Source of the DNA: Bryum argenteum
Taxonomy: Eukaryota; Streptophyta; Bryopsida; Bryales; Bryaceae
Length of the DNA: 64,000 nt
Direction of reading: 5' to 3'
Assembly (NCBI GenBank): GCA_037043015.1
Contig: CM073321.1
Coordinates: forward strand, 687,001 to 751,000
Made by a program: the position numbers and the translations under genes. The notes beneath the pieces were generated by a model. That model was given only the letters and a program-made list of their open reading frames with translations, was not told where the DNA came from and did no database searches. This document shows positions 20,766-52,269 of the stretch, in pieces (the first letter of the stretch is position 1; each line of letters opens with the position of its first letter).

Positions 20766-21299
20766 GGATGGAAGGAGAGAGTTTGTGAGGGAGATCCATT
20801 AGGAATGGGTTCTCTCTTATATTCTTTAGTTCGTCAAATCTGGCCTACTGAACACCATGCCAACAACGAGGAGCACAACACAGCAAGTATCAGGGGAGAT
20901 GTGGCAAGAGGAGACAATCAGCAACTTCCAGGTATGCTTACATGTCACCAAATCTTAGTGGCATAGAATATCCATGAAAATTGGGTTTCAACGAGCTGGG
21001 AGGATGGTATCTAGGGTAAACAGCGAAGAAGGGCAGGCATCTGCGAGCTGCTCCCATCGGACAACGGAAAAAGAGACCTCGCCCAGCGGCCGCAAAGTCC
21101 AGCGACAGCTGCTCCGAGCATCGTAGGAGCCACGTAGGAACGGCCCAAACGGTCAACAGCACCCTATTGGACCAGAGCATCAGCGGAGGGAATCTAGCGG
21201 AGACCAGCGGCGCCGGGACAACAACGAGCCAAGGGTGCTGGAAAAGGTGCCCAGCAGCGGTGCTTACGAGCAGCAGTCGAGGGTCCAGAGGCCTTGTCG

Positions 21300-24004
21300 A
21301 TGCCGACAACTTTGAGTCGCCAGCGACGGCCCCGTAACCCGCCTGCAGCAACAGGACGGGGAGGATCAGTTCGGGGGGGTCCTAGACGATGTGCAACGGT
21401 GTTCAAAGATCTAGCGCGCACTAATCTCATGGACCTGCAACAAAGCCGTGATGTCATGAATTTGCCACAAGAAATTATCGAGCCTCTAGAAGTTAGAGTA
21501 TTGCAAAGGCAACACATAGATCCCGAAAGTGAGATTGGAGACGAAGAAGAGGAAGGATTGATTCAATGGGTTAGGGGAACAGCTACTAGCAGTTTTGTGT
21601 GTCCAATGTCAGCCATGTTGATATATGTGGTGCAAATGAACAATGAAACTAAGCAAGTGCCATTTGGTGAGATTGCTCCTATCTTTGCCCACACCAAACT
21701 GCAGGAAACACAGGAAGAAGAAGGCTTGGGAGAACCTGAAGAGCCGGGGCTTGGTTCTGAAAGCAATTTAGAAGATTCAGTCAGTGGAGAAGAACTCGAT
21801 TTCTTACTGCTAAATGATGACCTTGGGCAGCGCCTCCATCAACAAATCCACCAAAGCGAAGAGTTTGCGGAATACGAGAGTCCACGACAGAGCATGGTAT
21901 TGTTCAAGGGCAGAGAAGTGCCTGTGATCAGAAGCGGAAGAGGAGATAAGCGCATCGCCGAAGTTGGCGCCAACGGCTCTCGCCTAGCGGGAGAGGGGCC
22001 ACGTAAACGGCATCGCAGGCGGGGAGTCCAGCTCGTCGAGCGGCTAGGCGAGGAGTCTAACTCCAATACGTACGAGGCGGGGAGTCGAGCTCGTCGGGCG
22101 ACCTCGTGGACATCGCAGGCCAGCCCTCCAGCCAGCTCGACGGGGTTTGGGAGGGGGGGGTCAGCGGGGCGCTGTGCATGAAGACAGCTCTGTCAGCGGA
22201 GCCCGCCAGCCCGAGCCCCTGACAGAAGTGGAAGGTATGGGGAGAGGGACCCGCCAGCCCGAGCCCATTGTGGGCCACAATCAATTCTCCCATGCGACAG
22301 AGCCCATTGTCGGGCACAGCCCCTTATCACATTCGAGTTTTGATCATACAAGGGTAAGTGGGCCACATGGAAGGGGCAGAGGACGGGGTGTAGGAAGGGG
22401 ACTAACTAATTGGGATGTTGGTCTAAGTTCCAAGGAATGCTTTCAAGACAAATGTTGGGGGAAATTTCAATCGACTTACACTCATGATAATGTTGTTTTC
22501 ACCGGACCTAGTGAGGGTCCTCCACGTGTTTTGAGGAAAATCTCTCCCATGTTAGACTTGTTCCACAAATTCTTCACTAAGAAGACTTTGAGGAAAATAA
22601 TGAGAGAATCTAACCGGTATGCCGCTTCTATTGATCCAGCCACGGGACTGACTAGGGGGCCAAAAGATTGGTGGAGTTTGACTGTGCCGGAGTTGGAGGC
22701 ATGATTGGGCATTAGCATATTAATGGGGTTATAAATTTTATCTAACCGTAGATGCTATTGAAAAAGTAGCGAGAAATTTTTCTATTGTCATACTATTGCT
22801 AACACTATGAGCATGAAGAAGTATGAGGCTATAACGAAGTGTTTACATATTCATGATGATTCCATGGCCCCCATGGATAGAAATGACCCTAACTTTGAGA
22901 AATTAGTGAAGTTGAGGTGGCTAATTGAGGAGGTGAGGCACCAATGTGTGTCAAATTGGAATCTTGGTCAATACGTAATCGTTGATGAGCTAATGGTGAG
23001 ATACAAGGGAATCTACGGCTACGGCATGAAGCAATTATACATGCCTAACAAGCCGGTAAAATTTGGATTCAAGATTCGGGCAGCCGCAGATTCGAAATCC
23101 AAGTACATCTACAACTTCCAAGTCTACACAGGGGCGGATGTGAAGAAAAATCTTCGAACGGCGAAACTGGGGGAGGCGAAAACGGGTTACAAAGTGGTGA
23201 TGGGATTGATAGACGGATTGCATGGGCGGGGCGACGTTGTCGTCAGCGACAACTTCTTCACTTTACCGAAACTCTTCGTGGATTTGCACTCCTTGGACAC
23301 ATATGCCACGGGCACCGTGTGTTCCAATCAGATTGGTTTGCCGAGCAACTTGGTGGACAAGCGGAGATGGGTGAAGCAACCCCAAGGGAGCTCCGATTGG
23401 CACATGCATTGCACCGGTACGTTATGTTTTCTTGTTTGGGTAGATAAAAAACCGGTGCTTTTATTGTCAACCCATGCGGAGCCGTTGTCACCGGATCCGG
23501 AGGTGCCTCTCACGGTGCCCTATTATACTTGTGGAAGGACGGAGCACATACCCACCTCTCCTATCCACTTGGAGTACACCCGCATGATGTGAGGTATGGA
23601 TGTGAGTGACCAACTCCGGGGAGTCTACACGGCCTTATCCAAGACCCACAAATGATGGCATAGGATAGATGTTCTTGGTAGATTTATCAATTACGAATGC
23701 ATGGATCATTCACAAGCGGGAGAGTTTGGATTTGGAGCTTGGTGCTATGAACCATTTAGACTTTGTCACGGCATTGGCATTCTCTCTCATGGAGAATTGG
23801 AGGCGGGACCGGATGGGCGTGGTCTCTCTATGCACTTATATCCCGGGCACTCATGGGCTTGAGAAGGTTCCTCGAGCTAGACACCAATGTGCCACGTGCA
23901 AAGACAAAAAAAAACTTACAAATTATGTTTGCAAGGATTGTGGTAGTGCATGGTATCACATGGGGGATTGTTTCAAGAAGTCACACTTTGTACTCCGAAG
24001 GTAG
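21300..24004 (+). pseudogene. piggyBac transposase (DDE_Tnp_1_7), inactivated
   Basis: Successive plus-strand frames follow a piggyBac transposase. From 21300 there is an acidic/basic N-terminal region. Frame 22147-22704 gives VVFTGPSEGPPRVL, ESNRYAA and WWSLTVPELEA, the start of the conserved core. Frame 22807-23592 gives VIVDELMVRYKG...YMPNKPVKFGFK (first catalytic Asp) and VVVSDNFFTLPKL (second Asp). After a stop comes GMDVSDQLRGVY (third Asp). Frame 23669-24004 gives LSITNAWIIHKRES and the C-terminal Cys-rich finger CATCKDKKK...CKDCGSAWYHMGDC. Between 22702 and 22770 three stops sit where Trp/other codons belong (ELEA-stop-LGISILMGL-stop, CY-stop-KSSEKFF). A further stop precedes GMDVSDQ, another follows KTHK, and a frame shift lies near 23665. 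No TTAA-flanked ends were located. Confidence 0.85.
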
Positions 24005-41782: not shown

Positions 41783-41978
41783 AGCAAGACAGATGACACA
41801 AAGAGATTGATCAAGGAGTTATCTGGGGTAATGAAGAAATGGAAGAGCCAGGGAGTGGACAGGAGCTTTCAGTCATCCTGATCAACTCCGGCCTCCCATT
41901 TGAGATTGCTTCCAGTTCAAATGAGATTGGTACGCAAACACTGATTGGTAACTGACTAACTGTGCAGCAGGGAAAACC

Positions 41979-42065
41979 ACCGGTGTAAGCGTTGAGCGTT
42001 GAGCCATGAGAGGTGAGCGGTAAAGTTTGAGCGGTAAGAAGAAAAAAATTTAAAAGTTAGGGGCC
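41979..42065 (+). repeat. Left terminal inverted repeat (candidate)
   Basis: Contains GTGTAAGCGTTGAGCG followed by degenerate GAGCGGTAA copies and an AAATTTAAAAGTTAGGG tail; it pairs in inverted orientation with 50957-51018. Confidence 0.55.
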
Positions 42066-42970
42066 CTATTACCATGGAATGGGTGGTTCAGGAATTTTGA
42101 CGCGGTAATTTTTAGGGTTTAAGAGTACACAAAACCGTGGACATAGGTCCTTCATCCATCCATTTTCATGGTATTGAGGTCCTACATTATTTCATAAGTA
42201 ATCCACATTTGCAAGTGTAAATAAAAGTTAATTTAATTATGAGATGGCATCATTATGTGTAACCAATACAATTCAAATCATATACAAATCTAAACCCCCA
42301 CTTTTGGATGGCCCTTTAGTTAATCAAGAAGTTTAATTTGTCAATTTTAAGATTTAGAGACTAATTAGGGCTGACGTCATCAATTTCCTATTCCACTTAT
42401 CAGAATTATATGTAAATGCTTCGGTTTATATAATCTAAAATTTATAACGACGGGTCGTCTTTTCATGTCTCCTTGTAAGGTGTACAGAAAGACATTCACG
42501 TAGCATTGTAGTGGTCCGAGTTCGATTCTCCTCGGCCTCGTTTGAGCGCTACATCGTCTTAAAGCAGCTATCCTGAGCTATACAAATACCGGACTATAGC
42601 CCCTACCAACATTGGCAAGAATCAATCACTCCAATGGAAACTAAAAAAACATTTTGAAAATTTTAGTTTGTATAGAGTTCAAAACTTAAACATTTACATA
42701 CACCAATGCATTGTAATTGGAGTTGAAGAATATACATGCATATTAGGGCTGACGTCACCGTTAAAGGCAAGCATGGCTTTAGCTTACATAGTATTGAAGT
42801 ACTTAGAGTAATACTTGAAGCACTTAGTGTAGGTTAAGTCTCGATAAAAAAAAATATCAAACCGTATATATTGAAAAACACATATAGATAGGATATAAGT
42901 AATAGATCATGGTAAACTACGAATGTATGGCGCTAACATGTCCAGTACCTATCAGAAAACAAATCACAAA
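42066..42970. other. Non-coding inside the element; SINE-like patch
   Basis: AT-rich. At 42501-42514 TAGCATTGTAGTGG resembles a pol III A box and at 42518-42530 GAGTTCGATTCTC a B box, but they are adjacent instead of about 35 bp apart, so this is at best a shortened tRNA-derived element. Confidence 0.3.
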
Positions 42971-45900
42971 CTAGGCAGACGGTGTAGTACCATTAAAGTG
43001 CTGATCACACTGATCAGCCTCAAAGTCTATAAACTTAAGCACACTATTGCTATAACGTCGACGTGGAGTGTCAGATAAAATGGAAGATGGAGCTTGAACA
43101 AACTCTTGAGCAAGACGCTCAGCGTACGATGGTAGGGTGAAGTTTGATGGAGGGCTCTTGTAGAGATGAGCGTTGCGAGTCAATCGTTCTTTCAAACCTG
43201 CGATCCTAAAAGTACAAAGAAAGTCAATACTACTGATTTGTAAGTGCGTAAGTTAAAATCGAGAAAGAGAATACAAGGTGGTATTACGTACAAATGAACT
43301 TGCGTGGTTTCTTCACGACCAATTCGTCAGAGTCATAATCTGCGGGAGGGGCTGATTCTACACTTTCTTCATCACCGGGGTGACCATTCTTGTATTCCGC
43401 TAGTACACCATCAAAAATTTCTTCGTCTGGTTCCATGGTGTCGAGGTGTCGGTTGGAGCGCGCGCAAGCAATCACAGATGCACCTAAAAGATTAGATGCC
43501 CCAGTTAAAAATGAAAAATGAATAAACAAATTCTAATGTAGAGTTTACGATAACATTACCTGTACTTGCGCTCCAATCGAAGACTATACCCCCGTCGTCC
43601 GTGAGACAATCAACAAAACATTGAATGAAAGAGGGGTCCTTCTCTCGTGAGCCTCGCCATGGCGTACCATCCGGACGATAACGCAATGTCTCTTTGTCTG
43701 CAAAGTTACAGAGGTGGTCTTCCTCATCAAGTACGATTGCCACACCCGCGTATGCGTGTGCCACTTCCCGAGTTGGAACTTCGGAAAAAATCTTTACGAA
43801 CATAGACTTTGATATGGAAGCAGTGAGTCTGCAAAACAGAAGTATACATACGTTAACATAGAAGCATAGAAGACAATAATCATGAAATGTGAAATAGGAA
43901 AATAGAATCTGGTCCGTACCTCTTTCGGTTTAGGCACGGTAGAGGCCATAGGGAGGGGGTTATATCCCCACCAGTCTCGAACAAGACGAAAACTATATGT
44001 ATGCGACTCAGAATCGAGAGTGCGTTCGATTCTACGACATTTTGGATGCATCAGAAGAATGGCTCCAACGTCTGTCAAATGATACGCGGCAAATACAAAG
44101 AGGCTCTCGAAGTAGGTTTTGTCACGTCGGTTCCTAGATGGAATTTCTGTTGGAGACACACCCGGTATAGGCAAGTTCTCAGGAGCATCTGCAAAAAAGA
44201 GATCAATTCCTGGATGCTTGGGTTCATACTCCATTGCCGAACACGGGTACTTACGGTCTTTGCCAATCTGAGATACAGGTGAAAAATTAGATAGTGGCTA
44301 ATAGATTCACTAGTACTCAACGTGCTTAGGGAGAATATAAATGACAAATGTATGAAATAATACCTTCTTGATGTGCTCGACGATATCGAGGATTTGCGAA
44401 TCCCATTTTGCAGTCTTCGACGACTGATGAACCAAATCTCCAATGTTCCCCTTCTCGAGATACATTGGCAGAGTAACTGAAATTTTCGACGACGAGCTGC
44501 TACCAATGTGATTGGGTTTCGGAAGAGGGCGTTTCGGAAACATTGGCTGGCTAAGGCGACGCGGGGACTGCTGGGAGTTGTGGTCCACGGTGAACGATTG
44601 AGGAGGAGACCCTGCATTTGTAAGTCCACCTGTAAAAAGCTGAGTCAGTCTTGCATTGCGTCGATTTGCATTGTTTGTCGCTCCCTCTCAAGCCTGAGTC
44701 AGATCAGCATCTTCTGGCCCTGCAATGTCTTCTAGAAGGGGAGCAGTTTCTTCACATTCTTGCTCTAGATCTACAACAAGTTCCGCAACAGCATTGCGTC
44801 GCTTTCTGGTTGCATGAGACTTGGGCACTGCAACTGGTGAAGAAGGAGAAGAGATTGGATCAGGTGCATCTGGTAAAATAGAGAGTTCGTCATCGTCATC
44901 ATCATCAATCTCCATAGGTGCAGTGTCAGCTGGATTGGTAGCCTGGTTTCGAATAAGATGCTTCTCCTCCTTGTGAACGTAGTTCTGGTCGCACTCAAGG
45001 AACCATCCACCGGTTATGATCTGGGAGTTTGTAAACCGCTCTTGTTGGGCTGAGGAGAAAAAACTGCGGGGATCATTCGTCACTGCAACGTCCTCGAACT
45101 CCATTGGAATGGAAAACGAAGGTAATGCTCCCTTGGCAATGAATTCTTGTTTTAAGTACCTACAAGAAAGTGAACAAATTAGATAGGGAAAATTGAATAC
45201 GTTGAACCACTTTCAATAATATTTAATAGGAAATGAAATACATACCGGAATAAAAGTCGCTTAATTGTAGCTTTGCCTCCAGTAATCTTACGAAGATTCG
45301 AGCCTTTAATGATCTTCGGACTTGCAGTTGGAGCAAGATAGTTTCCGAATGCCTTCTCCCATAAGAGCAACCTCGACTTCTCGGTATATGCAGATGGCTT
45401 TAGGACAACACTAGACCACTCAATATTGAGGTTCTCGTTGTCTACCAGATTCTGCAATTCACTTTCAAGTGATTGCTCAAGCTGAGAATACAAGAGACAT
45501 GTTAGTATTAAAAGTAACATATAATCTCAAATACTGTAATCACAGAACGAATATGCAAGTTACCTGTGCCCAAAGAGAAGCACGATGTAGAAATGAAACC
45601 AAAGCTTTGTCTTTGATCGGGCGTTCCTCTGGGAATCGAAATGATCGTCGAACTTTGTTTGGTGAGTTCCACCATTGTAGCCACTTTGCCTTGAAATCAA
45701 ATTGAACATTGCTAGTCGCTACCATGTGTAAGCGTTCAAACGTCATGTCGGGTTTCATGTTTTGGCTGTAATGAGAATTAATCTGCATATCGGAATCACA
45801 GTTTTGATTAGTGCAACCCTAAACGTAAAGATAGAAAAAGTGTCATAAATCGCGGAACCCAGGCAGCAATACCTCTCTCGCAAAGACTTTCCCGAGTTTG

Positions 45901-47317
45901 ATATTGGCCACCGCGACCATTTTGTCAAAATTCTTGCCACGTATTACTTTGATTTCAGCCTTGATGGCGTTATTCATGGCACTCCATACTCCAGGTCCAG
46001 TTTGTTTATCTTTTGGAACCGTGGCGTAGTACGTAGCTTCAGCGTCGTCGGATTTTTTGGCTAACCTCCTCTTTATAACAACCCGAACACAAATGAGAAG
46101 TTGTTTTAAATAAATTATAGCAAAAGGAGTCGATAACAATCATAGCGAACATACCGCGTATAGAAATTTTACAAAAACGTCTATTGTCACAGGATACCAC
46201 GTCTCCTTTTTTGCTTTGGCGTTCTTACAGATCCTGTAATCTTCGGGGGAAATGAGGTCCTTGAAATCTTCGAGTTTCAGTTTTCCAAATTTCCTCATGC
46301 GTTGCAGTTTCGCACACAAACTGTCTTTGACATGATCATGTTCAGTGGACCTACAACATAGAACGAAAGATGAGAAAACTTGTATATGACACAATCATAA
46401 AAGAATATGATATTAATTAATGACGCATTTTCTTACCAGTTTATGTCGTTCATAGCATCGAGGAGGAGATTGCTCTCTCCACGGGCATCGAGTACGATGC
46501 AATCAACCGAAATGTACCACGAGGGATCATTCTTGTGATACCTCTCGATATGGCGCATCCAGGCTATAACACGGTGGTTACCTTCGTAGACATAGAAATA
46601 TTTGTCAGAAAGGTTACAAAGATCTGGATCAGACCGCAGCGTGCTCTCGAACTCTTCATTCGCAGCTTTCCAAAGCGGGTTCTTCCAAAGTTCATCTTGA
46701 GTGTCAACGTTTTTTTCTCGGCCTTTTCTATCAAAGGGAGACACGTACATTACCCGATTGCCTTCGCGGTAGCCTTTGTTGAACTCATTCTCCTGTTTTC
46801 GGACGTCTTGATCAGAGATCGGCCAAACCTTCGGATAACAGACGAGGCGACAAAGTGAAATTAGCATACGAGACTTCTTAACATGTTTGTAGCGTAACCT
46901 GTTGTTGATTGCTATCGAATCACTCTTGTGGAGCATTCGCATCTCGTTAGCACTCCAGTCGGGGTCCTTGTTTTGAAGATGTGTGGGCATGTGAATCATT
47001 CCAACGTTGACACCTTCAGGCAATGTAGATTCTTCATCATCCGAGAGGGATTGGTGTCCATCATGGTCTTGCGTTGGTAGGTAAATATCTGCAGCTTCAA
47101 GAGGATCGTCACTTGAAACTGCATTGCATTCGCCTTCCACAAGTTGGCGATCAGATTCCGAAGGACTCTCTTGCAGAACTCCACCTCTGAAGTCATCAAC
47201 ATTTCTCACACTATCAAGCATGAGTTCATCTCCGACGGAAGGTACAGTTTGTGGAGGATTAAGATGAGGCGGAATGGCTTCTTCATATTGAATGAGATGG
47301 TCTTGACCTATGCTCAT
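42971..47317 (-). CDS. ParB-like domain / beta-class DNA methyltransferase fusion, 11 exons
   Basis: Exons (minus): 47317-46437, 46350-46155, 46070-45873, 45782-45564, 45481-45246, 45159-44756, 44629-44364, 44267-43920, 43806-43560, 43483-43292, 43197-42971. All ten introns are GT-AG and phase-consistent, giving 1,137 residues; the sixth donor (GAAT/GTGAAG) and ninth exon's acceptor are the weakest. Residues about 240-300 (YVYEGNHRVIAWMRHIE, then MNDIN) match the ParB/sulfiredoxin-like fold with its G-N-H-R signature at 246-249. The C-terminal third follows beta-class DNA methyltransferases in order: IDLFFADAPEN (motif IV position, residues 821-831), DVGAILLMHP (V), an SREKDPSFIQCFVDCL segment (motif X-like), then GGIVFDWSASTGASVIACA (motif I, SAM pocket, about 988-1006) and RHLDTMEPDEEIF. 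ParB plus methylase fusions are known from bacteria and phages. Motif IV is D-A-P-E, not DPPY, so catalysis is doubtful. Divergent to the MULE gene 252 bp away. Confidence 0.85.
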
Positions 47318-47569
47318 TTGGAAATCCAAGAAATCAAATACAACACACCACAATAAGCATAAGATAGTATAAAATGAATAATAATATATAAAAAGTAGTA
47401 CATAACCTTATTGTAACTTAATATATGATAAACATATCATATAATGTTCCGTTAAATCTAAGGAGATTGCATCTTTTCGGCAAGTCGCGGAGAACGTCTA
47501 GGTGCAAGTCTAGCAAATTCCTTTTCCTGGAGACGACGAGCTTTGGCCTCATTCTTTTATAATCGTAAA
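47318..47569. promoter_or_regulatory. Shared divergent promoter region
   Basis: The 252 bp between the ATG of the methyltransferase gene (minus, 47317) and the ATG of the MULE gene (plus, 47570). Very AT-rich in its left half, with TATATAAAAAG at about 47385 as a possible plus-strand TATA box. Both genes must be controlled from here; the elements are inferred, not proven. Confidence 0.5.
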
Positions 47570-50556
47570 ATGTATAGGCTACAGCCCGGACAGTATCGAC
47601 TCTATGGCCTAACAGAGTCCGTCATGAACGCCTCCACCGTGCTCCTCACTCCTCGTAGCTCTTCTACCATCTCCACAGTTGTTCCAGATATTGCTCCTGT
47701 CAATGTCGAACCCGGACTCGAAGTCCGAATCGATATTTCTGATTCATCCGACGATGAACGAAAAGCGTCCATCCAGTCCCGTCATTTATCATCGGATCTG
47801 CCTCCCCCATTGTCTGGTTCTGAATACAGTCTTAGAACCACCCCCCTTTCTCTTCCCGCGTCCAAAGTCGTAAAACCCAAAACCATTCTTTCCTCGCTCC
47901 GTAGACTAGGTAGTATGTCTCGCAACAAAACTATACTCAAAAAAATAGATTTTCATTCCATTCGTTCTCACAGCGTCTCTTTCCTGCCTCCCACTTTCAA
48001 TCGTGATGTTCTGTACATTCTCCCTCCCGTTCTACCAACTACTGCTCTCAAGGTAGCCAAATCTACGGAAGGGATGGACAAAAGATACGACGGTCATGTG
48101 TGGACCAGGACAATGACCACTAACATCAGTAACAACCTCGGTTTGTCATTCCGCTACTCTAACTGTGCAGGGCATCTTCAATGCCACAATGACAAGTGTG
48201 GCTTCTTGCTACGACCTGACCGCAGAGCACAGGTGAATGAGGTGGAGTTCGAGGGCTTTACCAAGGACCCCTTCTCTGTCGGCCACGCACCTCCTCCTTC
48301 TTCAACACTCGTCTGTAAGATCTGCAAAGAACCTCCCGTTTGTGTTGCACTATGCCCTTCTAAAATAATTTATGTCTTCGGAGAGGAGAGTCAAGAGCGA
48401 GCTTGTGTGCATATCGGTACCCACGATCATCCTGTCAATGTCGGAGACTACAGATGTGCACGTAAAATAACTGATGAGTTAATAGAGGAGCACGTAGAAC
48501 GTAACCCACAAGCTACCACGTCCAAAATAGTCATGGAGGCCAGCAAGGACTTACTCGGAAACTTACTTCTCCGTGAAGAAGGTAACCCTGTAACCTCCAA
48601 GCTCACCCTCCAGGAGCTAGAACCTATCTTCGATCAGTGTAAAGAGCTGAACTATGCGAGCGTTAGAAATCGTATTACCACTTTTAAGCACTTGCGCAGA
48701 TACGGTGTTCTTGATGGGATCACCAAGCTTCGAGGCCTCAGCAACTGGGCTTACATCCAACGTAATCAGTTCCCGGGCCAAGGAGATGAAAGTGACAAAG
48801 TGTTCATTTTCAAGATGTCCGAGGTCGGCCCCGGAAGCGGTGTTGACTTTGTTCGTCGTATGCAACCCGGAGGCGACCTGTCCCATGCTTGGATGATGTT
48901 CGACCACGTCAAGCGTGTCAAGAACTGGACCACCATGGCATGCCACGTTTATGACTCGAAAATCTGCCGCATTCTAACTATTGCATGTTGTGATTTCCAG
49001 TCTAAAGACGGGGATGCTCAAATCGTCTTCTGGAAGAACCTAAGCCACGTCATGGGCAGGAACGGAGTGGAAGCACCGCAGTTTAAAGGGTTCATGGCCG
49101 ACAGTGCGCAAGCCAACTGGAACGCTGTGCGGATCATTTACGGCTCCGGAGACCCTAAAGAGCCTATGGAAGACCACGAGCGGACTTGCTACTTCCATTG
49201 GACGCAATCCCTAGAGAAACACACCAAACAATACATCGTGCACGAACTGCAGGATCAACATCGACATCTTTATAAGCAATACAAAGATGCACGCACCATG
49301 GCTGAGGCGGAAACAAGATACTGGGCGATCCGAGCGTGGTGGGCATCGGCGCAGGCCACCTCCGAAGTTGGATTAGGTAACCTCGAACACTGGCTTGCAT
49401 TCTGGCATTTCCGATATAGGCAGTGGGGTGTCGTCATGGAATTGGTGAGTCCACAGTCACTGTGTTCAAGAAACGTAAGGCTGATGTTCCAATTGGAGCT
49501 GATGATGAAACGCACAGACCTGACACCGTGAGCTACTCACGTCCTCAAATTGGGAGAAGGGTTACCCGAGCTTGTGCTGAAAATCTGAGTACTATCCATG
49601 AAGAGGATGAAGTTGAGGAGCCACCGACAATACCATCCACTTTTGCTGGACCTAGTATTGAACGTGTGACCGCTGTTCAGGAGACTAAAGTAGACGAGAG
49701 GCTGTGGCACATTGCCCGTTTGAGGGAGAATTCTGCCAATGCTTGTTGGGGTATCATGCGTAAGAGTAAAAAAAGATGTGACTCGCGAATTATTCAGAAG
49801 GGGAAGGCAATCGCAGCTCCAACTTACACCGGAGTATGGCAGCGTCCTCAAGAGGGGCCAAGAAAAATTGATCAGTTCTTTTTTTGTGCGGATGATATTG
49901 ACAGGTGTGTGAAGGGTCATCGTCGCAAGTGGATTGAGCCATTCTCTCTAAGCCAAGACAGACCCCCTATTCCTTCAATATGGCCTGTAAAGGTAGGGAC
50001 TAACCTCACACGTGATGAAATGGAGGCGTTAGAGAAAGCGGGCTTTCGATTATCACAAAAAGAACAGCTTCCTACGAACCGCACATTCAATAATGTTGCC
50101 CCACCAAGAGACTTGTCCCATATTCCAGTCCCGGAGAAGCCGGACGTGTTCCCTAGGTCAAGAAGATCGAAGAACATGAAACGCATTCCAGCTATGACTT
50201 CAAAGCACATGAAGAATATTGAGTCTGCCACCTTAATGCAGGCCAAAATTCTGAAGGTGACCATGATCCCGCAGCCCAGATTTGGATGTATCGTAGACTT
50301 GGAGTCGGATTTGGATGCAGTTTATAGACTTTTAATTAGTAAATTTCTAGATTGCTCATGCCCAGTGTTCAAGAAAACAATTTCTTCGTTAGGACGGAGA
50401 GATCCATATCGACCATGCAAGCACCTATACTTCATCACGGTATTGGTTTGCAAATTTGATCCGGATGCTGACCTCTTCATCGACGCGGCCACTCTTAGTT
50501 TCAACGAGGTTAAGAAGATTCTGGAGGGAGGAATCCTAGACCATGCTACAGATTAG
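47570..50556 (+). CDS. MULE (MuDR-type) transposase with SWIM zinc finger
   Basis: Cut-and-paste transposase. The first frame runs from the ATG at 47570 (the upstream in-frame TTG at 47543 is less likely) to a stop at 49531, 653 codons. It has Cys-rich parts (CHNDKCGF, CKICKEPPVC), the DDE-fold core with SHAWMMFDHVKR (Asp about residue 445), FKGFMADSAQANW (Asp about 511) and the MULE C..H signature CYFHWTQSLEKH (540-543). The second frame, open from 49423 to 50556, has no usable start of its own. It carries the SWIM finger C-x-C ... C-x-H (CSCPVFKK at 50353, PCKH near 50415) that ends MuDR-type transposases, so both frames belong to one protein. A strong GTGAGT donor follows 49444, but no acceptor at normal intron length restores frame, so either a frameshift at about 49445-49530 or an unusual intron separates them. 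Confidence 0.82.
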
Positions 50557-50956
50557 AATGCCTTATATCTCCTCATCTACGTATGCTATGTGTTAGTCTT
50601 ATGATTGGGTGCTCTACACTGTATGTGATATTTTTTCACAACTTATTAAAAATTATTATACCAGTACCTACATGTACAGCAAACCTTGCCAATTTGTCTA
50701 ACTCGGAGTACTATTCACTTAGAAATATTACCTTAGAAACCTCTTGACATTTAAAAATTTGTGATTTACTGTCGAGTTTTGTAGCTCAAGTCTCACAAAA
50801 TTCAGGGAATTTAAGCTTTATTTCCACGGGTTTGGGTCACCAAATCCACGGTGATAAGTCTAGAATATTTGAATATTCTCAAGAATATTCGAAAATTATT
50901 CTCAATTTTTTAAAAAACTATTTTTAGAAACTTTTTTACTAAAAATACAAACTCAG
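50557..50956. other. AT-rich 3' flank of the MULE gene
   Basis: Contains GAATATTTGAATATTC and GAATATTCGAAAATTATTC type short inverted repeats at 50862-50905. No gene. Confidence 0.5.
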
Positions 50957-51018
50957 CCCTAAAAATTTTAAATCTTACCGCTCACCGCTCACCGCTCACC
51001 GCTCAACGCTCACACGGT
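50957..51018 (-). repeat. Right terminal inverted repeat (candidate)
   Basis: Reads, in plus orientation, CCTAAAAATTTTAAATCTTA followed by four CCGCTCA copies, then ACGCTCACACGGT. It is the inverted partner of 41979-42065, with cleaner GAGCGGT copies. Confidence 0.6.
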
Positions 51019-51472
51019 AGCAACGTCCTCCCAACTTGATGAACTCGCTATTCAGGGAGGCCATTTCGATACCCTCAAAGTACGTTATGAGGTCCTGAAT
51101 GTCGAAAATTCCATGCTCCTTTGTTGTACCGATGACAATAGAGTGGCAGTGATCTTGCTCAAATCCATTCACATCCACTGCACGGAGCACGATGATGATG
51201 TAGATGCCTCTGTTGCACTCGATGATGGTCACCTTCTCGTTGTGATTCCACGGTAGATATGTAGATGATCCGTTCTCCTTGTATCGAATGAACACAAAAT
51301 TCTTGAATTTGTTGACTCCAAAGTTCCATGTCTGAACGTGTGGCCTGAAGTGCCAGAGATCTGCATATGTCTCGGCCATTTCTTCGAAAAATGGCTTGTC
51401 TCCCAACAGATTCACGAACGGCTCGAGGTGATGCAAGGTGACTTTGTAGTCGTATGCTTCGACTTCCGCCAT
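51010..51472 (-). CDS. Unrecognised ORF running into the element end
   Basis: From an ATG at 51472 (MAEVEAYDYKVTLHHLEPF) a single frame runs about 154 codons before it enters the terminal repeat and stops there at 50996 (last residues RCYRVSVER come from the repeat). The protein is mixed alpha/beta in composition with FGVNKFKNFVFIRYKENGSS and EQDHCHSIVIGTTKEHG; I recognise no family. Because its end is made by the transposon terminus, the natural C-terminus is probably displaced to the other side of the element (left of 41979) or lost. The ten palindromes at 51556-52269 lie directly upstream of its start. Confidence 0.5.
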
Positions 51473-51555
51473 TTTAATTGTCTACATCATCGTCACAGAT
51501 TTGTGTTAGACGTTTCATCGCTATGCAATTAGTGTTGTGCTCATTATAAGGTACC

Positions 51556-52269
51556 TATCGTCAACCTGACAATGCAGTCTTCTGATATCTCTCGGAAAGA
51601 GAGACGTATGAGCGTTTCAGAAAACTCTTTTTGAATAATCTTAACAGCTCATCGTCGAACCGACGATAAGCTCTCATGCATTCGCTAAGAGCTACATAGT
51701 GATAGATCTCACTTATATCTTTCCTCTAGTGTCTAAGCTATCTACCTTGAACGTAGCTATCGTCGGACCGACGATACAGACGTCCTCCCTACACATTGTC
51801 TGTTGCAATATATTATATCAATGGCTAAGTTCTCTTCTCTGGAATGTACAATTTTGCAATACTGAAGGTTATCGTCGTGCCGACAATATCCTTTTTCCTT
51901 CTGGATATACTTTTTTTTTAGATTTACATGTTTCTTTTTCGATCATATTATTGACGGCTCGCCGATAACTTTCTAACTATCCTCTGGAATGTTTTATTTC
52001 TTCATTCTACTACATCTAAGGCCTTATTTAGCCTTGTATCGTCAACCCGACAATAATGTTATTTGAAGTCGTGTATCGTTGACCCGACGATAAGGCCATT
52101 TGAAGGCTTCTATCGTCGACCCGACGATAAGGCTATTGAAAGCCTTGTATCGTCGACCCGACGATAAGGCAATTTCTCTCTGAACTATATTCGGAGTTGG
52201 TAGCCTTTTAAATTCATTTTAAAACATCTTAGTACTACAATTTATTGTTGTATTGTCGGCCGGACGATA
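51556..52269. repeat. Array of ten 19-bp palindromes, TATCGTCGACCCGACGATA
   Basis: Copies start at 51556, 51650, 51758, 51870, 51949, 52037, 52074, 52111, 52148 and 52251. Consensus has 8-bp arms TATCGTCG and CGACGATA around a 3-bp centre. Four copies in the middle are spaced exactly 37 bp and are joined by spacers that are themselves partly inverted (AAGGCTATTGAAAGCCTT). The outer copies are more diverged. The array lies 84-800 bp upstream of the ORF starting at 51472 and just outside the element end. A dimeric DNA-binding protein target or transposon subterminal repeats are both possible. Confidence 0.85.

Follow-up and report, generated by a model that had tools for sequence, protein, structure and literature searches.

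The 64,000-nucleotide stretch of DNA analysed here (the window) corresponds to positions 687001-751000 of contig C1 (CM073321.1) in assembly GCA_037043015.1 of Bryum argenteum. At positions 41970-51028, it contains a 9059-bp copy of a MULE-like DNA transposon, in which a methyltransferase-like gene on the minus strand and a transposase-like gene on the plus strand lie back to back (~42-51 kb) between imperfect inverted repeats rich in GAGCGGT. The paired ends are 85% identical over 46 nucleotides (41983-42028 versus 50970-51015) and reach 90% identity in their best stretch (41993-42021 versus 50984-51012). The termini of the element, GGGGAAACCACCGGTGTGAGCG... and ...CGCTCACACGGTAGCAACGTCC, were set by seven other copies with target-site duplications and delimit a left terminal inverted repeat with GAGCGKT repeats (41970-42038, plus strand) and a right one with GAGCGGT repeats (50970-51028, minus strand).

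The methyltransferase-like gene (42969-47317, minus strand) is predicted to encode a ParB-like segment followed by an amino-methyltransferase fold. It contains several introns, whose splice sites were placed by eye, and has lost its upstream part. A putatively ParB-like GNHRxxA segment is located in its N-terminal exon (46436-47317, minus strand), and further along the same strand follow motif IV (44175-44192), with ADAPEN replacing DPPY, and motif I (43558-43578), with DWSASTG replacing DPFxGSG. On the plus strand, the N-terminally truncated exon 1 of the transposase-like gene (47561-49448), which has 68 other scored matches in the genome at 84-94% identity, is followed by a remnant of exon 2 (49469-50556) with a SWIM-like CxC...CxH pattern near 50350-50424.

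This copy is dead and internally deleted. Compared with copies on contigs C3 and C1, it lacks all inter-gene sequence from a junction at 47560-47565, and the two genes adjoin in the window because this middle part was deleted: the gap between them measures 0.2 kb here, as against 4.9-9.0 kb (22 pairs) or 12-17 kb (3 pairs) in the other 25 pairs. A second junction (49463-49468, plus strand) marks the loss of ~0.58 kb at 49463. Along with an intron, this removed the beginning of exon 2 and thereby the AESIHNKW segment, which we take to hold the catalytic glutamate expected in MULEs. The methyltransferase-like gene additionally carries an in-frame stop (44688-44690, minus strand) and a frameshift near 43785-43795, deduced by comparison with the copy on contig C10, which has neither, and a search for a target-site duplication at the borders of the window element found none. 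The first-pass annotation had described a 9-kb transposon-like unit whose inverted ends exactly bound two divergent genes. The repeats are confirmed and the unit is real at the family level, but each border lies ~10 bp further out, the adjacency of the genes stems from a deletion and the window copy is not intact. Although both genes and both ends are present, the two deletions, the stop, the frameshift and the missing target duplication leave practically no chance that the window holds an intact, autonomous 9-kb element, and we have rejected this reading.

Complete copies and linkage of the two genes

Searches of the genome (258.8 Mb, 25 contigs) covered both genes and both ends, and the first-look candidates given here are as such not confirmed copies. 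For the transposase exon, 1659 candidates led to 69 scored matches. For the methyltransferase, the scoring of 133 of 1222 N-exon candidates yielded 140 rows, and that of 150 of 2066 catalytic-exon candidates yielded 229. The element ends were scored at 40 places each, out of 779 candidates for the right and 396 for the left end. Both ends were checked in 10 other copies, in three of which the left end was not found within the stretch examined. A 10-bp target-site duplication was found in all seven non-window copies with both ends located, six of which share an exact word of at least 10 bp, with the seventh matching at 9 of 10 positions. The distance between the duplication and the ends is constant in the six exact copies, except for the copy on C10, whose duplication extends one base into the consensus start of the element and measures 9 bp if this base belongs to the element. 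With unrelated flanks, the expected chance per copy in one register would be ~1e-6 for a match at all 10 positions and 4e-5 for one at 9 or more.

The seven complete copies span 11.8-21.3 kb. According to the scored lists, five of them contain both genes (C10:12572279-12588026, C11:6386539-6401846, C3:19392209-19406483, C3:102656-116909 and C1:26488100-26509413), one has a methyltransferase N exon and no scored transposase (C1:30846736-30859235), and one has neither gene (C1:32554773-32566581). The C10 copy has a stop of its own in the transposase, and both transposase exons are open in the C3 copy. One mobile unit thus carries both genes between shared ends. The first-pass annotation had called for a genome-wide search for further copies, their borders and their duplications, and this search recovered copies with both genes and both ends as well as the duplications. 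That the shared ends belong to one element is borne out by their recurrence at the scored places and at the termini of complete copies. The alternative that the ends are unrelated small repeats was rejected, since the same ends recur as both termini of complete copies.

The two genes are also linked beyond the complete copies. A scored N exon lies within 20 kb of 26 of the 69 transposase copies (the window's included), in every case in divergent orientation, compared with a mean of 1.8 and a maximum of 6 in any orientation upon random placement (500 runs). The catalytic-exon list yields 25 partners within 22 kb, 23 of them divergent, compared with random means of 1.8 (maximum 6) in any orientation and 0.42 (maximum 3) in divergent orientation; the two non-divergent cases comprise one copy without a divergent partner (C1:35003709) and one that has a divergent N exon (C3:10497031). 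When both lists are joined, a divergent methyltransferase partner exists for 40 of the 69 transposase copies, with the random controls covering each list singly. The N-exon pairing was based on 133 of the 140 rows, leaving out seven short, weak rows of copies already listed, and the catalytic pairing on 136 of the 150 listed rows (229 matches in all), leaving out 14 next-exon rows; the N exon entered the joint count only as the 26 rows already paired. Viewed from the left ends, a methyltransferase exon points towards 21 of 40 from a distance of no more than 7.5 kb; this figure used 30 catalytic rows that were partly picked near left ends. By comparison, none of the 52 PF10551 MULEs of the same genome has a scored N exon at a distance of up to 20 kb. 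What weighs against a fixed pairing is that the scored lists contain no divergent partner for 29 of the 69 transposase copies, and transposase copies lacking the partner may exist. Nevertheless, the frequency of divergent partners upholds the joint occurrence of the two genes over the possibility, raised at the outset, that either gene is found alone, without its partner and without the ends. The initial idea of one transposon with both genes is therefore supported for the family, most of whose complete copies hold both, but not for the window copy.

Two further observations concern the distribution and the interior of the copies. As counted by eye, 25 of the 40 scored left ends are located on C1, which makes up 17% of the genome (P 1.7e-10), whereas the same contig carries 10 of the 52 PF10551 MULEs (P 0.39), 12 of the 40 right ends (P 0.03) and 21 of the 69 transposases (P 0.004). 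Since the query was the window's own end, this excess concerns the subfamily of the window. C1, the contig with the window, could be a sex chromosome. In addition, two large copies contain arrays of diverged repeats with a few hundred bases per unit between their genes (L051:2700-8200 and L053:7050-8450), and the ParB-like protein might bind to these arrays.

Assignment of the two proteins

The transposase has 50 relatives with 43-78% identity in the ena, jgi, lgn and ncbi sources, which appear to derive largely from metagenomes. Invariant across all of them are the D in MFDH, the D in ADSAQANW and the C and H in CxxHW; AESIHN was read in exon 2 of three copies. The initial assignment as a MULE transposase is supported by the motif layout, by the terminal repeats (imperfect inverted repeats of ~30-45 bp, with short repeats inward) and by the 10-bp duplications, which fall within the range of 8-11 bp that PMC6446971 gives for MULEs. 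However, several results weigh against it: no MULE model was reached, PF10551 gave no match, and the AlphaFold model of exon 1 (pLDDT 76) found no DDE transposase in Foldseek, with nothing at E 0.001 or better. As the label rests mainly on the duplications and the motif layout, we refer to the element as MULE-like. A different DDE superfamily with similar target duplications would account for the failure of PF10551 and of the fold comparison as well as for the shortness of the terminal repeats. We regard this possibility as unlikely, given not only the length of the duplications but also the conserved C-x2-H after the second D, the SWIM-like CxC...CxH end (seen by eye; Pfam SWIM E 0.36 and thus below cut-off, with no match for the full C3 protein), the detection of Transposase_mut in 2 of the 50 relatives (Pfam, best E 0.034) and a GCM-like N-terminal fold: for the transposase relative P0003, Foldseek ranked the DNA-binding GCM domain first (E 0.018), ahead of DIX and ubiquitin-like domains, which had E >0.1. 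WRKY-GCM fingers occur in MULEs.

For the methyltransferase-like protein, the evidence comes from spliced sequences and relatives, and no scanned exon piece of either gene reached the Pfam cut-off. The spliced protein of the C10 copy matches PF01555 with E 0.012 (0.00066 for the domain alone), as do all five members of alignment A1 (best E 0.00044), with both results below the curated cut-off. Among the NCBIfam models, PRK13699 was matched by five of five members (best E 0.033) and CcrM by three of five (best E 0.011), far below cut-off where one is shown. An annotated relative exists in Ceratodon purpureus, aligned over 73% of the query at 49% identity and the sole match among 7998 scored candidates; this protein, when itself used as a query, matches a PHROG DNA methyltransferase (E 2.5e-5). 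In Foldseek, the best match was Asc-Orf2 (1.8e-4), followed by the RNA methyltransferase PH1948, and the DNA enzymes included CcrM (5.4e-4), M.BceJIV (6.1e-4), M.PvuII (1.0e-3) and M1.HpyAVI (1.1e-3). These model-based matches support an S-adenosylmethionine (SAM)-dependent methyltransferase fold, not a particular substrate, and sequence and model together are consistent with an amino-methyltransferase fold with the motif order of the beta class (PF01555).

A number of results stand against this assignment. The top Foldseek matches are not DNA enzymes, the TM-scores are low, and the underlying AlphaFold model (P0001) is poor, with a mean pLDDT of 45 and good values only around residues 510-560. 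A profile search of the PDB was weak (M1.HpyAVI, E 0.4) and aligned motif I at 10.7 bits, with the motif IV stretch lining up at -0.6 bits. A PDB search by single sequence and scans of viral contigs with P0001 and P0003 returned no relatives. The ParB-like nature of the N-terminal segment is weakly supported: the GNHRxxA segment was recognised by eye, and the C10 homologue matches a PHROG ParB-like family (E 0.013), but Pfam reported only TAZ1_RBM (E 0.038, 3 of 4 members) and the PDB nothing relevant.

The catalytic motifs were surveyed at 20 loci picked for diversity and long frames. Motif IV reads DxPE in 20 of the 22 copies read, DxSE in one and DxPK in one, with DPPY or P-P-aromatic in none. 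Motif I, using a pattern that demands D.S, could be read in 18 of 22 copies and retains STG in 14; relative to DPFxGSG, it has lost one glycine and the aromatic residue. The Ceratodon protein shares both altered motifs, and the further relatives with motif IV have DxPE, apart from one DxPD and one DxPS. Motif IV keeps its Asp and one Pro, motif I keeps one glycine, and a later Glu, which presumably binds ribose, is also retained; the replaced Glu, Ser and Thr are invariant across the four subfamilies found here and the Ceratodon protein. The amino-methyltransferase motifs listed in PMC8885841 are SPPY, DPPY, NPPY and DPPW; the catalytic motif departs from all of them, which argues against taking DNA methylation as established. 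The DNA methyltransferase of the first-pass annotation thus stands with respect to its amino-methyltransferase-like fold and sequence, but with DPPY altered in 22 of 22 copies, methylation is a prediction only.

Given the altered motif, methylation is only slightly more likely than a non-catalytic role. A catalytically dead methyltransferase fold that does no more than assist the transposase, as a cofactor for DNA binding or assembly, is quite possible, if at somewhat less than even probability. It would fit the universal loss of DPPY and the missing motif I residues, and it has precedents in that replacing the Ser and Tyr of SPPY with Ala abolished the activity of bdelloid N4CMT (PMC8885841) and in that the MULE Mutyl carries the DNA-binding accessory gene mutB (PMC6446971). 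However, the retained residues speak against it, and the invariance of the altered Glu, Ser and Thr suits an altered site as well as a dead one. It is also conceivable, although somewhat unlikely in our estimation, that the active site was rebuilt under selection (DxPE for DPPY, STG for GSG) and now confers an undescribed DNA-modifying or SAM-sensing activity that marks or shields the element's own copies.

Selection and the proposed role of the methyltransferase-like gene

Selection was assessed by pairwise Nei-Gojobori ratios of nonsynonymous to synonymous substitution rates (dN/dS), given as medians over pairs that are not independent and include dead copies. For the transposase exon (29 copies, 406 pairs), dN/dS was 0.22 at dS <0.1 (10 pairs), 0.11 at dS 0.1-0.2 (97) and 0.09 at dS 0.2-0.35 (299). 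The N exon (13 sequences, among which L039 and the window represent the same place) gave 0.76 (12 pairs), 0.35 (10) and 0.15 (17) in successive dS classes, then 0.13 at dS 0.35-0.5 (24) and 0.10 (1) and 0.05 (3) in the higher ones. For the motif IV exon (22 copies), the successive values were 0.61 (6), 0.36 (8), 0.20 (26), 0.15 (6) and 0.27 (5), with 0.16 at dS 0.8-2 (30 pairs), and for the motif I exon (21 copies) 1.09 (8), 0.16 (9), 0.17 (15), 0.37 (6), 0.33 (3) and 0.17 (61). Pairs with dS >2, saturated pairs and pairs with a dS of zero were left out, which removed 150 of 231 pairs for motif IV, 108 of 210 for motif I and, for the N exon, 11 of 78. Overall, older pairs show values of mostly 0.13-0.20 for the methyltransferase and ~0.09 for the transposase. 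A third conserved coding exon (KKKRRGGTKFTNSKAQRRSALRKRDG...DGYDILIDDDVLPPFRRTIKMRSLNLDSVPES; L053:4720-5205) adjoins the transposase on the opposite strand; 26 of the loci L010-L038 (29 in all) contain it, and the window copy has lost it through deletion. Its dN/dS is 0.11-0.13 at dS >0.2 (27 sequences, two of them from the same place and one frame-shifted). It could represent a small gene in its own right or belong to the methyltransferase gene as its first exon.

Our results show that purifying selection has acted over the long term on the transposase, the methyltransferase-like gene and the third exon alike. Genes that are needed for propagation show this kind of pattern, with constraint between subfamilies and relaxation once a copy has inserted, and because the methyltransferase-like gene has been kept by selection, it probably helps the element to spread. 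Host gene fragments are often captured by MULEs, as described in PMC6446971 and PMC13317346, and the methyltransferase could in principle be such a captured passenger in the manner of Pack-MULEs. Its dN/dS in older pairs, which lies near that of the transposase, and its occurrence in the same position and orientation in more than half of the transposase copies (40/69) make this highly improbable, and the passenger reading was rejected on account of the selection on the gene.

Taken together, we consider it fairly probable that the copies constitute a large (12-21 kb) cut-and-paste MULE-like family with a self-binding ParB-methyltransferase that marks or occupies the element's own DNA. In this model, complete copies would encode a MULE-like transposase, a ParB-like/amino-methyltransferase protein on the opposite strand and the product of the further conserved exon next to the transposase. 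The ParB-like part would bind its own element, most likely at the GAGCGGT-type terminal repeats or at internal tandem repeats, and the methyltransferase fold could then mark the bound DNA (at N6-adenine or N4-cytosine) or occupy it. As a benefit, the element might escape host silencing or be recognised by its own transposase. Transposons with DNA-modifying enzymes of their own would carry their own epigenetic instructions. The many copies of differing age and the selection signal make the role of the accessory protein testable, and the consistent change in the catalytic motif raises the question of whether the enzyme still methylates.

Related systems and neighbouring features

Fungal KDZ elements with TET/JBP enzymes are one parallel to the present family. 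Mariner elements with a methyltransferase likewise represent DNA transposons carrying such a gene, but they have a Mariner transposase, a viral host and an endonuclease alongside, and the enzyme of Mariner-1_OLpv acts on C5-cytosine. The closest counterpart by description is the accessory protein of Sola1-1_Ec32 from Ectocarpus, a protein of 1104 amino acids with ParB-like and N4/N6 amino-methyltransferase parts, whose gene runs opposite to that of the transposase within a giant 21.5-kb DNA transposon; PMC12477816 regards it as possibly representing a new class of accessory proteins with which transposons could bind and modify their own sequence, and cites green and red algal transposon cases alongside. 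The family described here similarly combines ParB-like and amino-methyltransferase parts inside a DNA transposon, opposite its transposase, but differs in its MULE-like transposase, 10-bp duplications, land plant host and DxPE motif, the likeness to the Ectocarpus protein being drawn from its description in PMC12477816. If the proteins are kin to those of Ectocarpus Sola1 and the algae, the same accessory protein was acquired repeatedly, by unrelated transposases.

MULEs with additional genes or domains include MuDR, VANDAL with VANC, the ULP1-bearing Kaonashi and 14 Phytophthora MULEs with SET, and VANC induces hypomethylation of related elements (PMC6446971, PMC13317346). The present family resembles these elements, as portrayed there, in combining a transposase with an accessory gene or domain, whereas its accessory protein has another fold; the word 'methyltransferase' is absent from the main text of both articles. 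DIRS1-like elements (PMC3266345) are also mobile elements with a methyltransferase domain, but they are described as retrotransposons with a tyrosine recombinase, whose pol includes the domain. A further similar case is N4CMT of bdelloids (PMC8885841), a bacterial-type amino-methyltransferase that is linked to transposons in a eukaryote, yet it is presented as a host gene with a part in transposon silencing, with an SPPY motif and a chromodomain, and is not borne by an element. The first-pass annotation knew of no MULE with a methyltransferase, and the literature searches made here turned up none, but ParB-methyltransferases have already been reported in Sola1 (PMC12477816). What is already known, therefore, is the existence of transposon-borne ParB-methyltransferases; new here is the MULE-like carrier with its altered, conserved active site.

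Three features lie at or beyond the borders of the window element. A minus-strand open reading frame (50996-51481) enters its right end, and the insertion may cut the 3' end of this frame. Further downstream, positions 52017-52168 contain 37-bp tandem repeats with the near-palindrome ATCGTCGACCCGACGATA. At 21198-23592, a DDE_Tnp_1_7 transposase, which we take to be of the piggyBac type, was matched across overlapping frames (E 3.2e-37).

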